NCBI GenBank assembly: GCA_029821755.1
Contig: JALGSV010000005.1
Location: forward strand, 1-64,000
Source of the DNA: Candidatus Zipacnadum vermilionense
Lineage (GTDB): Bacteria; Armatimonadota; Zipacnadia; Zipacnadales; Zipacnadaceae
Direction: 5' to 3'
Length of the DNA stretch: 64,000 bases
The notes beneath the pieces are model-generated. The model had not been told where the DNA came from. It made no database searches and saw only the letters and a program-made list of their open reading frames with translations. The translations under genes were made by a program, and so were the position numbers. Shown here in pieces: positions 6,238 to 63,073 of the stretch (position 1 is the first letter of the stretch; every line of letters begins with the position of its first letter).

Positions 6238-6377
6238 CGTAGGGGCGGATGTTGGCGGGCGTACTCGCCCGTCAATATCCGCCCGCGAGCGCCCTACACG
6301 TGCCTGTCCTGGACGGCTGCCGCGGGCGCGGGCGGATGTTCCGCGGGATACGACTCCGCGGAACATCCGCCCCTACG
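6238..6377. repeat. Composite CGTAGGGGCGG palindromic repeat
   Basis: The outer 16-base arms CGTAGGGGCGGATGTT (6238-6253) and its exact reverse complement (6362-6377) enclose two smaller palindromes around GCGGGCG...CGCCCG and TTCCGCGG...CCGCGGAA. The right arm overlaps the 3' end of uvrC and supplies its TAG stop codon (complement 6373-6375). Related arms lie at 10606-10649, 39744-39828 and 60449-60597. Confidence 0.75.
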
Positions 6378-32154: not shown

Positions 32155-32275
32155 GGGGAGGGGTGGGTATTCCATGCCTCGCTCGGCCAAGTGGCGGCGG
32201 ACTTCCAGGTGCCCAAGGCCCGGGAGATCGTGCAGCGGAGGACGCTGGTGGGCGGCGAGATGAGAGCAGACCGGT
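32155..32275 (+). pseudogene. Duplicated, decayed 3' fragment of the thuA-like gene
   Basis: This stretch aligns base by base with the 3' end of the thuA-like gene (about 30624-30735): CCTCGCTCGGCCAAGTGG, GCGGACTTCCAGGTG, GCCCGGGAGATCGT and GGGCGGCGAGAT recur with scattered changes. The normal stop is lost (ATGAGA replaces ATAG). With the intact gene it brackets the low-GC rraA-like/PPC pair as direct repeats. Confidence 0.8.
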
Positions 32276-32341
32276 AGGGGCGGAGGTGGCGCCCTGCAAG
32301 CCGCCACCCCCGCCCCACGCGAGCAGTCAGACCCCGTTGGC

Positions 32342-39726: not shown

Positions 39727-42563
39727 AAATGAGACACTCTCCTCGTAGGGGCGGCTGCCACGAGACGATAGTCGGCGGCGTGCGCGGGCGGATGTTGGCC
39801 CGCAGACGGCCCAACATCCGCCCCTACGTGTGGGCAGCGGCGGCCCTGCTGCTCTGCACTGTCGCCTGCGCTCAGGAGACGGTTCTCTACCAGGCCAACT
39901 GGGGCCAGGGCGACCAGGGCCTGGACGGCTGGACGGTGACGAAGGTGGTCCGGGCCGGTCTGGACGCCCAGGGCGTGCCCACGCTGGTCTCTGGGCCCGG
40001 CACGGCGACTAGCCCCCGACTCCCGGTAGCGGGCGATCACCGGATTCACTTCCGCTTCCGCTTCTCCCGAGCAGCAGGAGCCCCGCTGTACGCCTCTGTC
40101 CGCCAGTTCCAGCAGGGCACGCAGCTTCCCGGCTCCTTCCAGCTCTGGGTGCAGCAACCCGCCATCGCCGATCTCACGCCGACCGAGCTGGGCTTCACCT
40201 CGCGTCCCGACGCCGACGCCTTCGACCTGATCTTCTCCGGCGTGGAGGCTACCTTTACCGGTCTACAGGTAGTGGACCTAGGGCCACGGCCGGAGATCAA
40301 GCCGGATGGCAAGGAACTCATCCCTAACGGCGGCTGGGAGGAAAGCGCGCCGCGGACGGCAATTGGGTCGGAAAGCTCCTACTTCCAGGGCCCCGGCTGG
40401 ATGGGTTGGTTAGCGGACGCGAGCAAGACCGTCACCAGCGTCCCCGACCGGGTCCACTCCGGCAAACAGGCCTTGATGGTTCTGACCGGCAGCGGCGCCG
40501 CCGCGAGCGCCGGCTTCCGTTACCTGCCCGCGATCCCCGTCGTCCCCGACGCCCTGTACGACTTCTCCGCCTGGGTCAAGGGCGAGGGCACGATCTCGCT
40601 CTACTACCTGGTGGGCGGAGAATGGGGCGACTCCTACGCCACGAGCAATGGCGAGGTCATGGTCTCGCCTGAGGAGTGGCGACAGATTCACTACGTCTTT
40701 GCCGCCGACCACCCCACGCACAAAGCGATCACCATGGGGGCGTTCGTTAAAGGGCGCGTTTTCATCGACGATCTCTCGCTGAAGCAGATCACCTCGACGC
40801 AGGCCGAGGAGTTCCGGCAGGTGATGGCCGACTATCCCCCCGCGCCGCCGGCCGTAGCCCAGACCGTCCCGGAGGGTGAGACGCGCCCGGCCGAACCGGT
40901 GACCCTGGAGAACACCCACCTGCGCGCCGAACTCTCGCCCGTCGGTGGCGGGCGCGTCGTGGAGTTGACCGACAAGCTGACCGATACGACGTGGCAAGGG
41001 AACCTCCTGGCACTGAACTTCCCCGACCAGCCGGTGGCGATTAGCTGGAATGTGCCTTTCCAGACGGAGGTCTCCCCCGAGGGGCAGCAGGTGACCTTCA
41101 GTCACACCGTCACCGGGGGAGCGGCAGCGCCGTTTCTGGACGGCATCAGGATTGAGCAGGTCTTCAGGCTGGGTCCAGAGGACCGCGCACTAAGCGTGAC
41201 CTGGCGGCTGGCCAACATTGCCGCCGGCCCGCGCCTCCCTAATCCCGCGGTGAGCACCGTCTGCGCCGCCGAGGCCGGTGTCCGTCGCCTCGCCACCTAC
41301 GGCGACAAGGGGCTCCTATCCACCGAGACCGACGCGACCTCCACCCGCAACCTCGCCGCTGGCTGGATGGCCGCCTCCACCGAGAAGTCATCCCTGGTCT
41401 GCGTCTTCGATGTGACCGCCGCCCAGGATGGCTACCTCAACCCCCAGGCGCGGTCGCTGGTCTGGAACTACCTGCGTCTGACGCTGCCGCCGGGAGGGGC
41501 GTGGGAGACCCAGGCGTGGTTGGCCTCGGTACCGTTGCCCGAGGTGGAGTACGCCGACCGCAACGTCGCGGTACAGGCTGCCCTGAGCAAGCAGGGCGAC
41601 CGCTACGCTCTAGCGGTGGGGGCAGCGGCACTAGGTACGCCGCCGACGCAGTTGGCGCGGGCGCAAGTGGTGGACTACGGCGGCGGAGAGCTCGCCGAGG
41701 CCACCACCGCCAAGCCGGCCCTCTTCCCCGAGCCGGACGCGCGGTTCATCACCAAGCTGATTCTGCAATCCGGCCAGATTCCCTACACCGTGGAGCTGTT
41801 CAACGATCCCCGCGGCAGCACCCCCGGCATCCAGGGCGCCTCGGAAGTGCAGTACCGACCCACGGTGCCTGCCCGGGTGCTGCGGCTGCCGGACCTGGGG
41901 GATCTGCGCGGGCAGATTGCGCAGAGCCACACGGTGCTCTGGGCCAAGGGGATATGGTTCCAGTACTACCCGCTGGAGGCGCCGCTACAGAAGGCCGGGC
42001 TCAGCGTGGAGAGCCTGGATGGTGGGCCTGGTTTCCCGGAGGAGGCCGAGGAATTGGCCGCCTACCGAATGGTGGTGCTGAACAATCTAGGGGCGGCGCA
42101 ACTGACCGCGGCGGCGCGAGCGGCCCTGTCGCAGTACGTCCGAGCCGGCGGGAGGCTGCTGGTGCTGGGCGGGTCGCTGGGGCTGGGGAATGCCCTGACC
42201 AAGGGGACGGACCTGGAGGGCATGCTCCCGGTTGAACTCAGCGGCCCCTTCGACACTGTCCCCCTGACCGGCGACGCCCAGCTCTTCCACCCGGTACGGG
42301 GCTCGGGCCTGGGTCCCCTGCCGTGGCCGCACCAACCACGGCTCTACTGGCGGCACCAGATCACCCCGCGCCCCGAGGCCACGGCGATTGCCCTGGCGGG
42401 GACGGAGCCGGTGCTGCTGGAGTGGCCCTTCGGGCGAGGGAAGGTCCTGCTCTATGCGGGTACGATCGAGGGCGAGGCGAAGCGGGGCGAGGTCGCGGTC
42501 TGGGACTGGGCGGGGTGGCCGGGATTGTGGGAGATGATGGTGGAGAAGTTGCTGTCGCCGTAG
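39723..42563 (+). CDS. Secreted CBM-like/GATase1-like protein with repeat-derived leader (family member 4)
   Basis: Up to 946 residues. Its first ATG overlaps the preceding stop (ATGA); a second candidate, ATG 39792, starts a tighter signal peptide (RRRPNIRPYVWAAAALLLCTVACAQ). A palindromic repeat (39744-39828) is read in frame across this leader. Mature protein: jelly-roll-like segment to ~210; CBM4/9-like module (~215-370; IPNGGWEESAP, VHSGKQALMVLTG, WRQIHYVFAAD); beta-sandwich (~390-720); GATase1-like end with YRMVVLNNLG, YVRAGGRLLVLGG, LEGMLPV and GRGKVLLYAG. The DYN..LY.C signature is not preserved. No Cys at the elbow. It closes the 35918-42563 operon. Confidence 0.68.
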   Translation: MKMRHSPRRGGCHETIVGGVRGRMLARRRPNIRPYVWAAAALLLCTVACAQETVLYQANWGQGDQGLDGWTVTKVVRAGLDAQGVPTLVSGPGTATSPRLPVAGDHRIHFRFRFSRAAGAPLYASVRQFQQGTQLPGSFQLWVQQPAIADLTPTELGFTSRPDADAFDLIFSGVEATFTGLQVVDLGPRPEIKPDGKELIPNGGWEESAPRTAIGSESSYFQGPGWMGWLADASKTVTSVPDRVHSGKQALMVLTGSGAAASAGFRYLPAIPVVPDALYDFSAWVKGEGTISLYYLVGGEWGDSYATSNGEVMVSPEEWRQIHYVFAADHPTHKAITMGAFVKGRVFIDDLSLKQITSTQAEEFRQVMADYPPAPPAVAQTVPEGETRPAEPVTLENTHLRAELSPVGGGRVVELTDKLTDTTWQGNLLALNFPDQPVAISWNVPFQTEVSPEGQQVTFSHTVTGGAAAPFLDGIRIEQVFRLGPEDRALSVTWRLANIAAGPRLPNPAVSTVCAAEAGVRRLATYGDKGLLSTETDATSTRNLAAGWMAASTEKSSLVCVFDVTAAQDGYLNPQARSLVWNYLRLTLPPGGAWETQAWLASVPLPEVEYADRNVAVQAALSKQGDRYALAVGAAALGTPPTQLARAQVVDYGGGELAEATTAKPALFPEPDARFITKLILQSGQIPYTVELFNDPRGSTPGIQGASEVQYRPTVPARVLRLPDLGDLRGQIAQSHTVLWAKGIWFQYYPLEAPLQKAGLSVESLDGGPGFPEEAEELAAYRMVVLNNLGAAQLTAAARAALSQYVRAGGRLLVLGGSLGLGNALTKGTDLEGMLPVELSGPFDTVPLTGDAQLFHPVRGSGLGPLPWPHQPRLYWRHQITPRPEATAIALAGTEPVLLEWPFGRGKVLLYAGTIEGEAKRGEVAVWDWAGWPGLWEMMVEKLLSP
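39744..39828. repeat. CGTAGGGGCGG-family palindrome inside a coding leader
   Basis: Begins with CGTAGGGGCGG, contains inverted arms GGGCGGATGTTGGCC (39786-39800) and GGCCCAACATCCGCCC (39808-39823) and ends CCTACG. It is the same family as 6238-6377 and is translated as residues ~8-35 of the gene at 39723. Confidence 0.72.
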
Positions 42564-42570
42564 GGTGCGG

Positions 42571-42803
42571 CGCTTCACCCCCTGCCCCCTCTCCCTCGCT
42601 TCCCTCGGGAGAGGGGGTTCCGACGGAGGGCCGCCGCGCCCTTTTGGCCGCTGCGACAAGCGAGGCGTCCGAGGAGGCGGGGGGCGGCCACCGCAGGATC
42701 GCCCCTACGAAGCCCCGGGGGATCGCGGAACCGCGCCCATCCATTCGCGACAGGCCAGCGAACGGGCGGCTGTCGGGCGCAGACGACACCGCGACGGCCA
42801 CCT
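42571..42803. repeat. Repeat cluster between convergent genes
   Basis: 42571-42617 is a CCTCACCCCC-type copy (CTTCACCCCCTGCCCCC...GGGAGAGGGGG). 42690-42790 contains GATCGCCCCTACG and then CGAACGGGCGGCTGTCGGGC, which recurs with one base changed near 60534-60553. Both genes end into this region. No coding sequence is supported. Confidence 0.6.
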
Positions 42804-58628: not shown

Positions 58629-60452
58629 ATGAGAACCATCCGCCTGCTCGCCTTGCTTCTCCTCCCCTCCCTCGCCTGGGCGGCGGACGAGCCCCCCGCT
58701 GCCCCCGCCGGGGTGACCGTCTCCGCCTCGCAGGAAGGCAACGATAGCCGCTTCGCCTTCGAGGGCGGGACCTTTCCCTACGTCCTGCGCTTATGGGAGG
58801 GCCCTATCGGCAAGTCCACCTACCGCGGCCTGGGCCTGCGCGGGCCCTGGTGGAAGGGCGGCCAGTACCAGTCCAACACCTGGTACATGAACAACTTCAT
58901 GGACCTGCAGGTCAACGGCAAGCCGGTCCTGGGCGGCCCCGACCCGCAGCAGCAGTACCCCCTGCTCTTTGACCGCATGGAGGTCCTGGAGAGCGGGCCG
59001 CGGGCGCTGGTGCAGTACGTTTGGGAGCGGCAGGAGGCCACCGTGCGCCTGCGTTTCTTGATGCGGCCCGACTGCCGCGCCCTGCTGGCCGAGGCGGTCA
59101 TCGAGCCCCAGGGCCCGTTGCAGTCCTTCGCCCTGACCGCCTCTTCCTTCCCCGGCGGCTACACCAGCAAGGGCGACGGCGACCGACGCATGAAGACGGC
59201 CCTGCGCGAGGAGAAGTCCACGGCGACGCTGGAGGTGGACCCGACCCAGGAGAGCTACTTCATATTCTGCGACGCTAAGCTCGATCTGGCCGACCCCATC
59301 AATCGCCGCGTCGGCGGGGAGGCCACCGGTTGTTCCGGTCTGTACCTGCTGCCGGACGGCTTCGCGAGCGGCCAGGTCACGCTCACCGGATACCCGATTG
59401 AAATGACCTTCACCGCCAAGCCCGAGGTCCGCCGCTTGCGCTTTGCCTTTGACGAACTGCAGACGCCCAACGCCGAGGCCTTCCAGACGGTACAGGAAGC
59501 GGCAGCGCAGGTGCAGGAGGCCCTGCGCACTGAGACCTTCGCGCCCTCCCTGTTGACCGGCTTTGGTTCCGAGACCGAACGGGCCACGGTCGGCAGGCTA
59601 TCTCGCACCGCGAGCGTACCGCAGAAGCTGCTCCCTCCGCTACAGGAGGCCCTGGATGGCGCGATGCAGGCCGTGGCCGCGTGGAGCGGCGGCGGGGACC
59701 AGCCGATTGCCCTGGAGCAGAGCGCCCTAGACGCGCTGGGCCTCCACCAGCGCCACCTGCTGACTGCGCAACGTTACACCCGGTCCGCCCTGCGTATCTT
59801 CGAAATGCGTGGCCCGGGCTATAGCCGCTACCGCGCCGCGGAAGCGGCCAAGTCAATCACGCCCGACAGCGTCGTCGACGGCGGCTACCTTACCGTCGGC
59901 GGGCAGAGCCGCAACGTTACGCCCTTCCCCGGCACGGTGGGGGGCCTGTACCAGTACGACGCGGTGCTGATGGAGGACATTGACTGCCGAGCGCTGGCGC
60001 CCAGCCAACTGGCGCTGCTGCGGCAGTACGTGGAGGACGGCGGGGGGCTAGCGGTCTTCGGGGGGTGGTTCAGCTACGGGGCCGGCGACCTGCAGAACAG
60101 CGCACTGGCGGAGATTCTGCCGCTGCAGGTCGGCCAGGCGCCCTTCGGCCTCAAGCGGACGGCGGCGGTCCTCAAGCCGGCGAGTCACACCCTTGGCCCC
60201 AAGACCGCGCCGTGGGTGGACAACCTCGTCTGCCCCTGGTCACACGATCTCGCCGCCGCGCCCGAGGCACAGGTGTTGATCAGGCAGGGGGAGTCCCCCT
60301 GGCTGGCCGCCCGGCCAGCGGGGCAGGGCCGGGCGCTGGCCTGCGCCGGGACGCTTTTCGGCGAGGCCCCAGCGGGGAAGCTGCTCTTCTGGGAGTGGCC
60401 CGGCTGGGCCGGTTTCGAGGCCGGGATGCTCAGGTGGCTGGCTCAGAAGTAG
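58629..60452 (+). CDS. Secreted protein with GATase1-like C-terminal domain (divergent family member 6)
   Basis: 607 residues; signal peptide IRLLALLLLPSLAWAA. The N-terminal ~280 residues are beta-rich but lack the PGEL and DYN..LY.C signatures of the other members. A helical stretch (~285-350) follows, then the GATase1-like end: FEMRGPGYSRYRAAEAA, YDAVLMEDID, YVEDGGGLAVFGGWFSYGAGD, LAEILPL and GQGRALACAGTLFGE. No Cys at the elbow. The TAG stop is the first element of a repeat arm (TAGGGGCG). It is the last gene of the 54610 cassette. Confidence 0.68.
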   Translation: MRTIRLLALLLLPSLAWAADEPPAAPAGVTVSASQEGNDSRFAFEGGTFPYVLRLWEGPIGKSTYRGLGLRGPWWKGGQYQSNTWYMNNFMDLQVNGKPVLGGPDPQQQYPLLFDRMEVLESGPRALVQYVWERQEATVRLRFLMRPDCRALLAEAVIEPQGPLQSFALTASSFPGGYTSKGDGDRRMKTALREEKSTATLEVDPTQESYFIFCDAKLDLADPINRRVGGEATGCSGLYLLPDGFASGQVTLTGYPIEMTFTAKPEVRRLRFAFDELQTPNAEAFQTVQEAAAQVQEALRTETFAPSLLTGFGSETERATVGRLSRTASVPQKLLPPLQEALDGAMQAVAAWSGGGDQPIALEQSALDALGLHQRHLLTAQRYTRSALRIFEMRGPGYSRYRAAEAAKSITPDSVVDGGYLTVGGQSRNVTPFPGTVGGLYQYDAVLMEDIDCRALAPSQLALLRQYVEDGGGLAVFGGWFSYGAGDLQNSALAEILPLQVGQAPFGLKRTAAVLKPASHTLGPKTAPWVDNLVCPWSHDLAAAPEAQVLIRQGESPWLAARPAGQGRALACAGTLFGEAPAGKLLFWEWPGWAGFEAGMLRWLAQK

Positions 60453-60597
60453 GGGCGCCTGCTGTAGTCGGCAGGGGCGTCTTTTGCGGAGCGAAGCGAA
60501 GCAACGGACGCCCGTTCGCTGACCGAGCGCTAGCGAACGGGCAGCTGTCGGGCTGCGGTCGCGGACGACCGCTTAGCGCCCGAAAGCCGCCCCTACG
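60449..60597. repeat. Inverted-repeat element between convergent genes
   Basis: The left arm GTAGGGGCG (60449-60457) and right arm GCCGCCCCTACG (60586-60597) are inverted. The left arm's TAG ends 58629-60452 on the plus strand, and the right arm's TAG (complement 60593-60595) ends the GH35 gene on the minus strand. The interior shares CGAACGGGCAGCTGTCGGGC with the cluster at 42690-42790. Confidence 0.65.
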
Positions 60598-63073
60598 GGA
60601 GTTCCAGCACCAGCGCCTCCCGCCCGTGCGTGTAGCGCAGTACGTGCCCTTGCTGCGTCTCCTCCGTCCGCACCTCGAAGCCGTTGAGCACCGCGGTCGC
60701 CGGTTCGGCGAAGCACAGCTCCCCGGCCGTCCCCGCTTTGCCCCATAGCTCCAGCCGTCGGCGATCGGGGTCCAGCGGGATGATCTCGCTAGTGGTGTAG
60801 AGCAGCCGCCGCCCGCCCAGAGTCGCCCCCAGCGCCAGGCAGCGGGCCTCATGCGGCTCCAGGTCTACCTCGACCGTCAGGTTCTCCCCCACCCGCAGCC
60901 GGAAGCTCCCTACGTTGCCGCCCTCATTGATGACGGTGAGGAAGTCGCCCTGCGGGCCCCGCTGCAGCAGCCCGTGGCACCATTCGCCCTCGCTCTGCAC
61001 CGCCGGGGCGATCCCCATGGCCTCGGTGATGATCCGCCCCCACAGCACCAGGCTGGTCGGGTTGGTGAAGGCCAGGTCAGTCCCGGCGACGATCGCCCGA
61101 CCGGCCCCGGCCTGCGCCTGCACGATCACCGGCCGGCCCTCGTGCTCGGCGAGGACCTTTCCTGCCGGCGCCGCAAAGCGCCAGATCCAGCCGTTCACGG
61201 CTACCTCTCCCCCATCCGGCAACGTCAGGGCGCGGGCACCATAGTCCAGGATCTCCCCGCCGGCGGGCCGCACCTGATCGCTCAGGCTCACCCCCAGCGC
61301 CTCGGCCAGGCGCAAGTCTTCCTCCCCGTCCTCGTTGCGCAGCGGCAGGCAGGGCGCAAAGAGCAGGCCGCCGCCCGCCGCCAGGTGCGCGAGGCACCAG
61401 TCAATCGCCACCGTCTCCAGTGTCCCTACGCATGGTACCACCACCCACCCCGACCCCGGCTCCCGGTTGGGGTGGGTGAGTTCCAGCATGTCGTAAGCAA
61501 CGTTCAGTCGGGACAGCGTCATCCCGGCTTCCTTGTACTTGCGCCAGGCTCCCGCCTCCGGCGGGCCTGTCTGCAGCGTGACGGCCTCCACGCCGCCCAT
61601 CCAGCCTTCCCCGCCCCCGGTCACGCCCGCAGCCAGGGCCGGCTCGGCGTCGAAGGCCTCGCCGCCTGGCCCGCGACCAACCTGCGTCTCTTCTAGCAGG
61701 GTCGGCCAGCCCAGGAAGTCGAGCAGTCGCTGGGCCGAGGTGTAACCCAGGGTCAGGTCGGCCACCGCGCGGGTTGCGGCGAGCTCCTGCTCCCAGGCGG
61801 CGACGAAGCGGTAGAAGCGCTGCAGCTCGTAGAATCCCGGTCGCCGGTTGCCTTGCACGTCCACACAGGTCGTGGGCCAGTAGTCCGGGCCTTCGATCAC
61901 ATCCGCCAGCGACACCTCCCCAGCGACCACCGGGTACACCGCCCAGCCCCGCAGGCCGCGGGCCAGGCCGACGCGCAGTAGAGGATTCCAGTTGATCCCG
62001 GAACGGTCCAGGCGCGGAATGAACCAGCCAGCGTTGACCTCCACGGCCAGCGGCGGCCCGCCCCAGGGGCTGGACTTGGTGATCTCCACCGCCTGCGTCA
62101 CCGCCACTGCGCCTTCCAGGTCCAGCAGCGGCGGGGAGTAGGTATGCACCGTCGTGCAGCCCTCCACCCCACGCGCCTTCAGCACCGCCCCAAAGCCCGC
62201 GTGGTCGCCATGTCCGTAGAACCCCGCTACCGGCTCGTTGAAGCTGATCGGCACCTGGACTCCGTCCTCCCGCGCCCACTGGGCCAGGGTCGCGCCCCAG
62301 TCGGCGAGGAACCAACGCTTGAAGTTGAGCCAGTCCAGGCACCGGGCCTTCTCGCCGTCGTCGGCCGGAAAGTCCCGGGGCGGCGGCAGCTGCCATGTCT
62401 CATACCGGCACCGGTACCGGTCGCACAGGGCCCCCAGGTCGCCGTCGTAGTGTTCCTCCAGCCACTTCGGCCAGAACTCCGTCAGGATGGTGGGGTCGTA
62501 CAGCGAGTTGGTCAGGCCATAGGTCCAGGCCGCGGACAACTCGTTGTCGGGCTGGTACATGATGATGGGCCCGCCGCCGCGGTTGGCGTCGTACTCCACC
62601 AGCAGAGCGTTGGCCGCCCGGTACCAGCCGCGTACGTACTGCCGATACAGCGGCTCCCCCTCCGCCGGGGCGGTCCGGCCGGTGACCCAGTGCCCATCGG
62701 CGCGTTGGCTGCGCGTCTCGGGGTGATCGCGGAAGAGCCACTCCGGGATGCCGCCGTAGCGCAACTCGCTGTTGACGAACGGCCCCGGCCGCGCCATGAC
62801 ACACAGTCCCGTCTCCGCCGCCAGGTCCAGGAACCGCCGCAGGCTACGCTCGGGGATCGTCGTCCCCTCCAGGTCCACCTGCCCTTCGACCGGCTCGTGG
62901 TGGTACCAGGGCATGTAGGAGGTGACGGTATTCAGCCCACAGTCCTTCATCTGCGCAAAGCGGTCGGCCCAGACGGAAGCCGGCAGCCGGAAGTAGTGCA
63001 TCTCCCCGGCAAGCATGAAGAAAGGCTTGCCGTCTATCAACAATTCATCGCCAACAATTGTGGATCGGGTCAT
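60593..63073 (-). CDS. GH35-like beta-galactosidase
   Basis: 826 residues. The N-terminal barrel opens with the family signature FMLAGEMHYFRLPASVWADR in part (GEMHYFRLP, 23-31), then DCGLNTVTSYMPWYHHEP and ARPGPFVNSELRYGGIPEWL. The acid/base candidate is E178 in QPDNELS (GH35 consensus QxENE) and the nucleophile candidate is E345 in LAVEVNAGW. Past the barrel, ~560-640 contains a GATase-like stretch (HLAAGGGLLFAPCLPL) as in beta-galactosidase trimerisation domains, then beta domains. No signal peptide. It releases terminal beta-galactose from oligosaccharides. It is convergent with the cassette at 54610-60452 and 34 nt downstream of the gene at 63108. Confidence 0.85.
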   Translation of the reverse strand: MTRSTIVGDELLIDGKPFFMLAGEMHYFRLPASVWADRFAQMKDCGLNTVTSYMPWYHHEPVEGQVDLEGTTIPERSLRRFLDLAAETGLCVMARPGPFVNSELRYGGIPEWLFRDHPETRSQRADGHWVTGRTAPAEGEPLYRQYVRGWYRAANALLVEYDANRGGGPIIMYQPDNELSAAWTYGLTNSLYDPTILTEFWPKWLEEHYDGDLGALCDRYRCRYETWQLPPPRDFPADDGEKARCLDWLNFKRWFLADWGATLAQWAREDGVQVPISFNEPVAGFYGHGDHAGFGAVLKARGVEGCTTVHTYSPPLLDLEGAVAVTQAVEITKSSPWGGPPLAVEVNAGWFIPRLDRSGINWNPLLRVGLARGLRGWAVYPVVAGEVSLADVIEGPDYWPTTCVDVQGNRRPGFYELQRFYRFVAAWEQELAATRAVADLTLGYTSAQRLLDFLGWPTLLEETQVGRGPGGEAFDAEPALAAGVTGGGEGWMGGVEAVTLQTGPPEAGAWRKYKEAGMTLSRLNVAYDMLELTHPNREPGSGWVVVPCVGTLETVAIDWCLAHLAAGGGLLFAPCLPLRNEDGEEDLRLAEALGVSLSDQVRPAGGEILDYGARALTLPDGGEVAVNGWIWRFAAPAGKVLAEHEGRPVIVQAQAGAGRAIVAGTDLAFTNPTSLVLWGRIITEAMGIAPAVQSEGEWCHGLLQRGPQGDFLTVINEGGNVGSFRLRVGENLTVEVDLEPHEARCLALGATLGGRRLLYTTSEIIPLDPDRRRLELWGKAGTAGELCFAEPATAVLNGFEVRTEETQQGHVLRYTHGREALVLELP

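Follow-up and report, generated by a model that had tools for sequence, protein, structure and literature searches.

A GTAG-tagged REP dimer on the stop codons of two convergent genes in Candidatus Zipacnadum vermilionense

An inverted-repeat element between two convergent genes

The window, by which is meant the whole stretch of 64,000 nucleotides analysed here from the genome of Candidatus Zipacnadum vermilionense (G000), contains two convergent genes that stop on the outer bases of the same inverted repeat (Table 1). The C-terminal part of the left gene product (approximately residues 380-605, the GATase1_like region) has some 30 paralogous matches in G000, which represents a large expansion. 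The first 280 residues of the right gene product match a model for exo-beta-D-glucosaminidase with a score of 174 bits, far below the cut-off of 1500 bits. The element is bounded on the left by GTAGGGGCG and on the right by its reverse complement, CGCCCCTAC, at 60588-60596, and a repeat search identified inverted arms at 60449-60460 and 60585-60596 that are 92% complementary. The left gene is terminated by the TAG at 60450-60452 and the right gene by the TAG read on the minus strand at 60595-60593. The first-pass annotation had described one inverted-repeat element holding the stops of both genes, and this description holds. The span of 60449-60597 that it gave is indeed that of an inverted repeat, but the right boundary is 60596 instead of 60597.

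Table 1. Features of the REP dimer, its flanking genes and other family members in the window.
Feature	Position	Strand	Remarks
Flanking gene, 607 aa, GATase1_like domain near C-terminus	58629..60452	+	Stop on element
Left GTAGGGGCG	60449..60457	+	Holds stop of 58629-60452; 22 bp outside canonical left REP end
Left REP hairpin, degenerate terminus GCAG	60471..60513	+	Alignment with three homologous copies
Linker between two REP hairpins	60514..60538		Folds; conserved in homologous copies
Right REP, GTAG and hairpin	60539..60596	-	Covariance-model match, 37.5 bits, E 7e-7
Flanking gene, 826 aa, GH35/GH42-like glycoside hydrolase	60593..63073	-	Stop on element
Second REP dimer, same family	6239..6376		Minus-strand end at 6376 also a TAG stop
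Single REP hairpin, intergenic	32274..32315	+	Covariance model
Family member, 81-bp element, exact TAGGGGCG ends	39745..39827		Covariance model
Degenerate REP hairpin, 99 nt beyond a stop	42682..42708	-	Covariance model

The two ends of the element are not equivalent. When aligned with homologous copies, the right end is canonical and possesses GTAG. In the alignment with the copies on contigs C58, C53 and C38, position 60471 is the canonical left end and the window has GCAGGGGCG there; two of these copies (C53:334035 and C38:72253) have GTAG at the position of GCAG in the left REP of the window. By this alignment, the left TAGGGGCG at 60449 is an additional terminus. The stop of the GH35-like gene thus coincides with a canonical REP end, while the other stop lies on the extra TAGGGGCG, 22 bp outside. 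A similar double terminus follows a trpE-like gene in a genome of the same genus (G001), with TAGGGGCG succeeded by GTAGGGGCGG about 20 bp on. A covariance model matched the left REP over 60449-60513. Together with its neighbours, the linker folds into a further inverted repeat, CCCGTTCGCT...AGCGAACGGG.

A family of GTAG-tagged REPs and the RAYTs beside them

The word GTAGGGGCG occurs nine times in the window, compared to 1.05 copies expected, and none of 100 shuffled sequences reached this number. In 1.22 Mb of G000 it forms 11 convergent and no divergent pairs, and over the same 1.22 Mb no pairs are formed by the reversed word or by any of four single-base variants. On the strength of the shuffles and the control words, a chance inverted repeat was rejected. 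Single copies in G000 are palindromes of 40-50 bp of the form GTAG-GGGCGGATGTTGCGGC...GCCGCAACATCCGCCC-CTAC, and dimeric copies of about 110-220 bp pair two of these hairpins in inverted orientation, their GTAG ends facing outwards. Compensatory changes in the conserved stem-loop, a feature of GTAG-tagged REPs, are present in the G000 family. Both sides of the stem have changed in 8 of the 13 base pairs, and the covariation score of 0.288 was reached by none of 500 shuffles (0.101 for the shuffled data). GTAG constitutes 109 of the 119 REP ends in 2.31 Mb of G000, and in the sample it precedes 20 of the 58 GGGCG-headed hairpins, with CGTG next commonest.

The same 2.31 Mb contain 34 head-to-head REP pairs. 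Only four of 58 exact GTAGGGGCGG hairpins in the G000 sample are found inside called genes. The covariance model has at least 144 matches in G000, and 16 and 53 in two genomes of the same genus; in the same family, six of twelve genomes have from 1 to 25 matches, and few matches lie outside the family. The window element is a REP dimer of the BIME/REPIN type, in which two members of a GTAG-tagged family stand head-to-head with GTAG outside. A classical IS or MITE was rejected. Inspection by eye of the flanks of the copies revealed no evident direct target duplication, and the identity of the inverted ends is confined to GTAG and the foot of the hairpin.

The NCBIfam model NF047646 for RAYTs (REP-associated tyrosine transposases) scores above its curated cut-off at four loci in G000. 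In G001 the RAYT L303 has pairs of GTAGGGGCGGCAG...CTGCCGCCC REPs, which are of the GTAGGGGCG type, on both sides. In G000, L312 lies at a contig end and is accompanied by a REP on the 3' side only (GTAGGGGCGGCGCC...GCCGCCC); it is tentatively regarded as the RAYT serving the GTAGGGGCG family there. The other RAYTs accompany sister families. L302 (L114; C71:182577-183330) lies between GTGGGGCGGGC dimers, which belong to a second REP family (GTGGGGCGGGCTTTCTAGCCCGCC) with 83 hairpins in the sample, many of them 8-20 nt past stops. L319 (L115; on C22) is flanked by GTAGCACAGGC REPs of a third type, GTAGCACAGGCTTCCAAGCCTGTG, and a REP of this type at C22:2558 lies on the stop of a neighbouring gene. 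The RAYT at C1:40299-40577 (L112/L321) has decayed and is interrupted by TGA and TAG codons.

REP ends and stop codons across the genome

The frequency with which REP ends fall on stops was determined in a sample of 2.31 of the 4.39 Mb of G000, in which a simple gene caller based on codon usage identified 1,706 genes (85% coding). The second half of the sample was added later as a replication. At 30 of 119 REP 5' ends, the gene lying upstream has its in-frame stop exactly on the TAG of the REP; the first half contributes 17 of 61 ends and the second 13 of 58. Had REPs been placed uniformly over noncoding DNA, 0.30 such coincidences would be expected (P about 1e-50). Counting copies at stop codons against random expectation was a check that the first-pass annotation had proposed along with its suggestion, as one of two readings, of target-site preference for TAG stops. 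The enrichment was borne out genome-wide, but the preference is probably for GTAG words, or for survival at them, rather than for stops, because the frequency of GTAG in noncoding DNA by itself predicts 21.7 of the 30 cases (of 109 ends; P 0.035). An artefact of ORF calling was also considered and rejected. If the true stop lay further upstream, the ORF would not extend to the REP, and in the 2.31 Mb no gene reads in frame into a REP at any distance from -300 to -1.

Comparison of the families within G000 points to the terminal motif. Of the 83 hairpins of the sister family with GTGG in place of GTAG, none lies less than 8 nt from a stop; in the third family, GTAGCACAGGC, two ends fall on stops. 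Stop overlap goes with the tetranucleotide and not with the stem.

The window element is the one dimer among the 34 with stops at both ends; 12 have a stop at one end and 21 at neither. Independent ends would give 1.4 dimers with two stops, and on this count the two-stop dimer was rejected as a special feature; one of its two ends in the window is, moreover, not canonical. Where a REP end lies beyond a stop but within 150 nt of it, the distances cluster at 31-36 nt (14 of 38; 7 in each half), and some of these stops read TAGGGGCGG or TAGGAGCG, perhaps as remnants of older REPs. In bacteria TAG is usually the rarest stop codon. In the sample it is the commonest, with 889 of 1,706 stops compared to 588 for TGA and 229 for TAA, at a G+C content of about 66%, and such a TAG-rich genome has more GTAG sites on offer.

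Orthologues provide evidence on whether insertion truncates genes. In G001 the orthologues of the left and right genes of the window (L117, 63% identical, and L137, 68% identical) stop at the same residue position, likewise with TAG, and lack the repeat. The C-termini are WLAQK-TAG in the window and WLAGK-TAG in G001 for the left gene, and LELP-TAG and LELL-TAG for the right gene. This comparison of 3' ends with homologues lacking the element had likewise been proposed in the first-pass annotation. For the 30 genes with a REP on the stop, 24 orthologues were found in G001 or a second same-genus genome, G002. The end falls at the same position in nine, eight of which also use TAG. It lies within three residues in 17 of the 24, the median length difference is 0, and five of the orthologues have 6 to 25 additional residues. 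In a small control set of eight genes with a GTAG stop and no REP, the end falls at the same position in four and within three residues in seven. Given this match of the orthologue ends, most of the stops overlapped by REPs are native, and a few genes may have been clipped slightly by insertion.

Proposed landing at GTAG and its alternatives

The best explanation of these observations, to which we assign a probability of about two in three, is that the element is a REP dimer mobilised by a RAYT, that such dimers land at GTAG, and that stops are enriched among their positions as harmless sites. The RAYT, a HUH transposase, would move the dimer, and the GTAG guide would choose the landing site, its complement CTAC being the template-strand form of a (G)TAG stop. 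Upon landing at a GTAG stop, the stop would be kept as the terminus of the element itself and the protein would remain intact, while landings on GTAG within genes would be removed by selection. Stops would accordingly be enriched as harmless GTAG sites without being recognised as stops. The specific proposal that RAYTs pick their sites by pairing of the REP GTAG guide with template CTAC, with (G)TAG stops as the main harmless targets in a genome densely packed with genes, is more tentative, and we would put it a little short of even odds.

Several observations count against a GTAG target. The GTAG-site model slightly under-predicts the overlap, at 21.7 compared to 30. A few orthologues are 6-25 residues longer, so that selection on gene-clipping insertions may account for some cases. 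Cleavage by the known TnpA_REP takes place at CT dinucleotides (PMC8266576). Clean empty sites of intergenic copies were searched for within the genome, and none was found. The search yielded two weak, repeat-derived candidates (C17:127720 compared with C1, and C58:18383 compared with C71), neither of them usable and neither with GTAG at the junction. Between genomes, intergenic DNA cannot be aligned because the orthologues in both same-genus relatives are only about 50-90% identical in protein.

The chief rival explanation, which seems unlikely but deserves serious weight, is a selection filter. A GTAG-ended element would insert near gene ends without any target preference, and the copies whose TAG is in frame would survive by supplying a working stop while other copies were lost. 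This would account for the lack of REP ends read through in frame, for the distance of at least 8 nt kept by the GTGG REPs, which cannot provide a stop, for the weak empty-site candidates without GTAG, and for the few longer orthologues. However, the TAG found at the same residue in eight of nine orthologues and the median length difference of 0 argue that the stop came first. Moreover, a CTC flank is present at only 5 of the 30 stop-overlapping REPs compared to 29 of 51 intergenic ones, as would be expected if the flank of the former were native coding sequence ending in the target.

Much less probable is a position set by function, in which the element would terminate transcription in both directions or stabilise mRNAs at the 3' end, and would be selected at convergent genes. 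The predicted fold is strong (-94.6 kcal/mol, z -4.4), and PMC3733652 describes REPs elsewhere as thought to act at mRNA 3' ends. However, no T-run follows the hairpin in the window, neither end lies on a stop in 21 of the 34 dimers, and the copy number drops from at least 144 in G000 to 16 in a same-genus genome. Nor would function explain the exact overlap with TAG. Such a role may exist alongside insertion without replacing it. Finally, the suggestion of the first-pass annotation that insertion had truncated both genes, to which the position of both stops on the outer bases of the element lends some appeal, can hardly be maintained, as in G001 the two orthologues, which lack the repeat, likewise stop with TAG at the same residue position.

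If landing at GTAG is correct, the pairing of guide and target would constitute a target rule for the dissemination of REPs, and would explain why stops are found so often at GTAG REPs and are absent at GTGG REPs. For the spread of REPs, the papers cited here describe cleavage and excision, with no demonstrated insertion of a REP by a RAYT. With about a quarter of REP ends on TAG stops and protein ends mostly unchanged, G000 offers a testable GTAG/CTAC target rule, for which its GTGG sister family is a natural control.

Short guides of this kind are known from the IS200/IS605 family. Under the model drawn from IS608, a short guide at the foot of the hairpin would pick out a short target sequence, which afterwards borders the element. 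In the REP system, TnpA_REP cleaves single-stranded DNA at the dinucleotide CT (or CA), and the GTAG beside the hairpin is regarded as a guide which, in the manner of IS608, pairs with the site of cleavage; for the REP guide, the choice of CT/CA sites is a suggestion, which sets it apart from IS608 (PMC8266576). With the REPIN/BIME elements of Pseudomonas and E. coli and their RAYT/TnpA_REP proteins, the window element shares two inverted REPs around a linker. A HUH Y1 transposase acting in trans is believed to move those elements, with GTAG as a recognition motif and probably a guide (PMC3116915, PMC2817692, PMC8266576). G000 differs in having several RAYTs, each beside its own REP type (GTGGGGCGGGC, GTAGCACAGGC or GTAGGGGCG).

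The closest parallel is provided by the GTAG-tagged REPs of Di Nocera, De Gregorio and Rocco (2013; PMC3733652). The families described there share with G000 the 5' GTAG, the hairpin with complementary stem changes, the presence of RAYTs in the genome, and head-to-head dimers 20-100 bp apart and mostly downstream of genes. The likeness is one of anatomy; the G000 stem has GGGCGGATGTT, and the paper gives consensus sequences for 24 families. It also reports that GTAG REP termini often provide flanking ORFs with a TAG stop. Overlap of stops by GTAG REPs has thus been known since 2013, and G000 is a further case. The present analysis contributes a count of stop overlap under two null models, a replication half, a test of native stops against orthologues, and GTGG REPs as an internal control.
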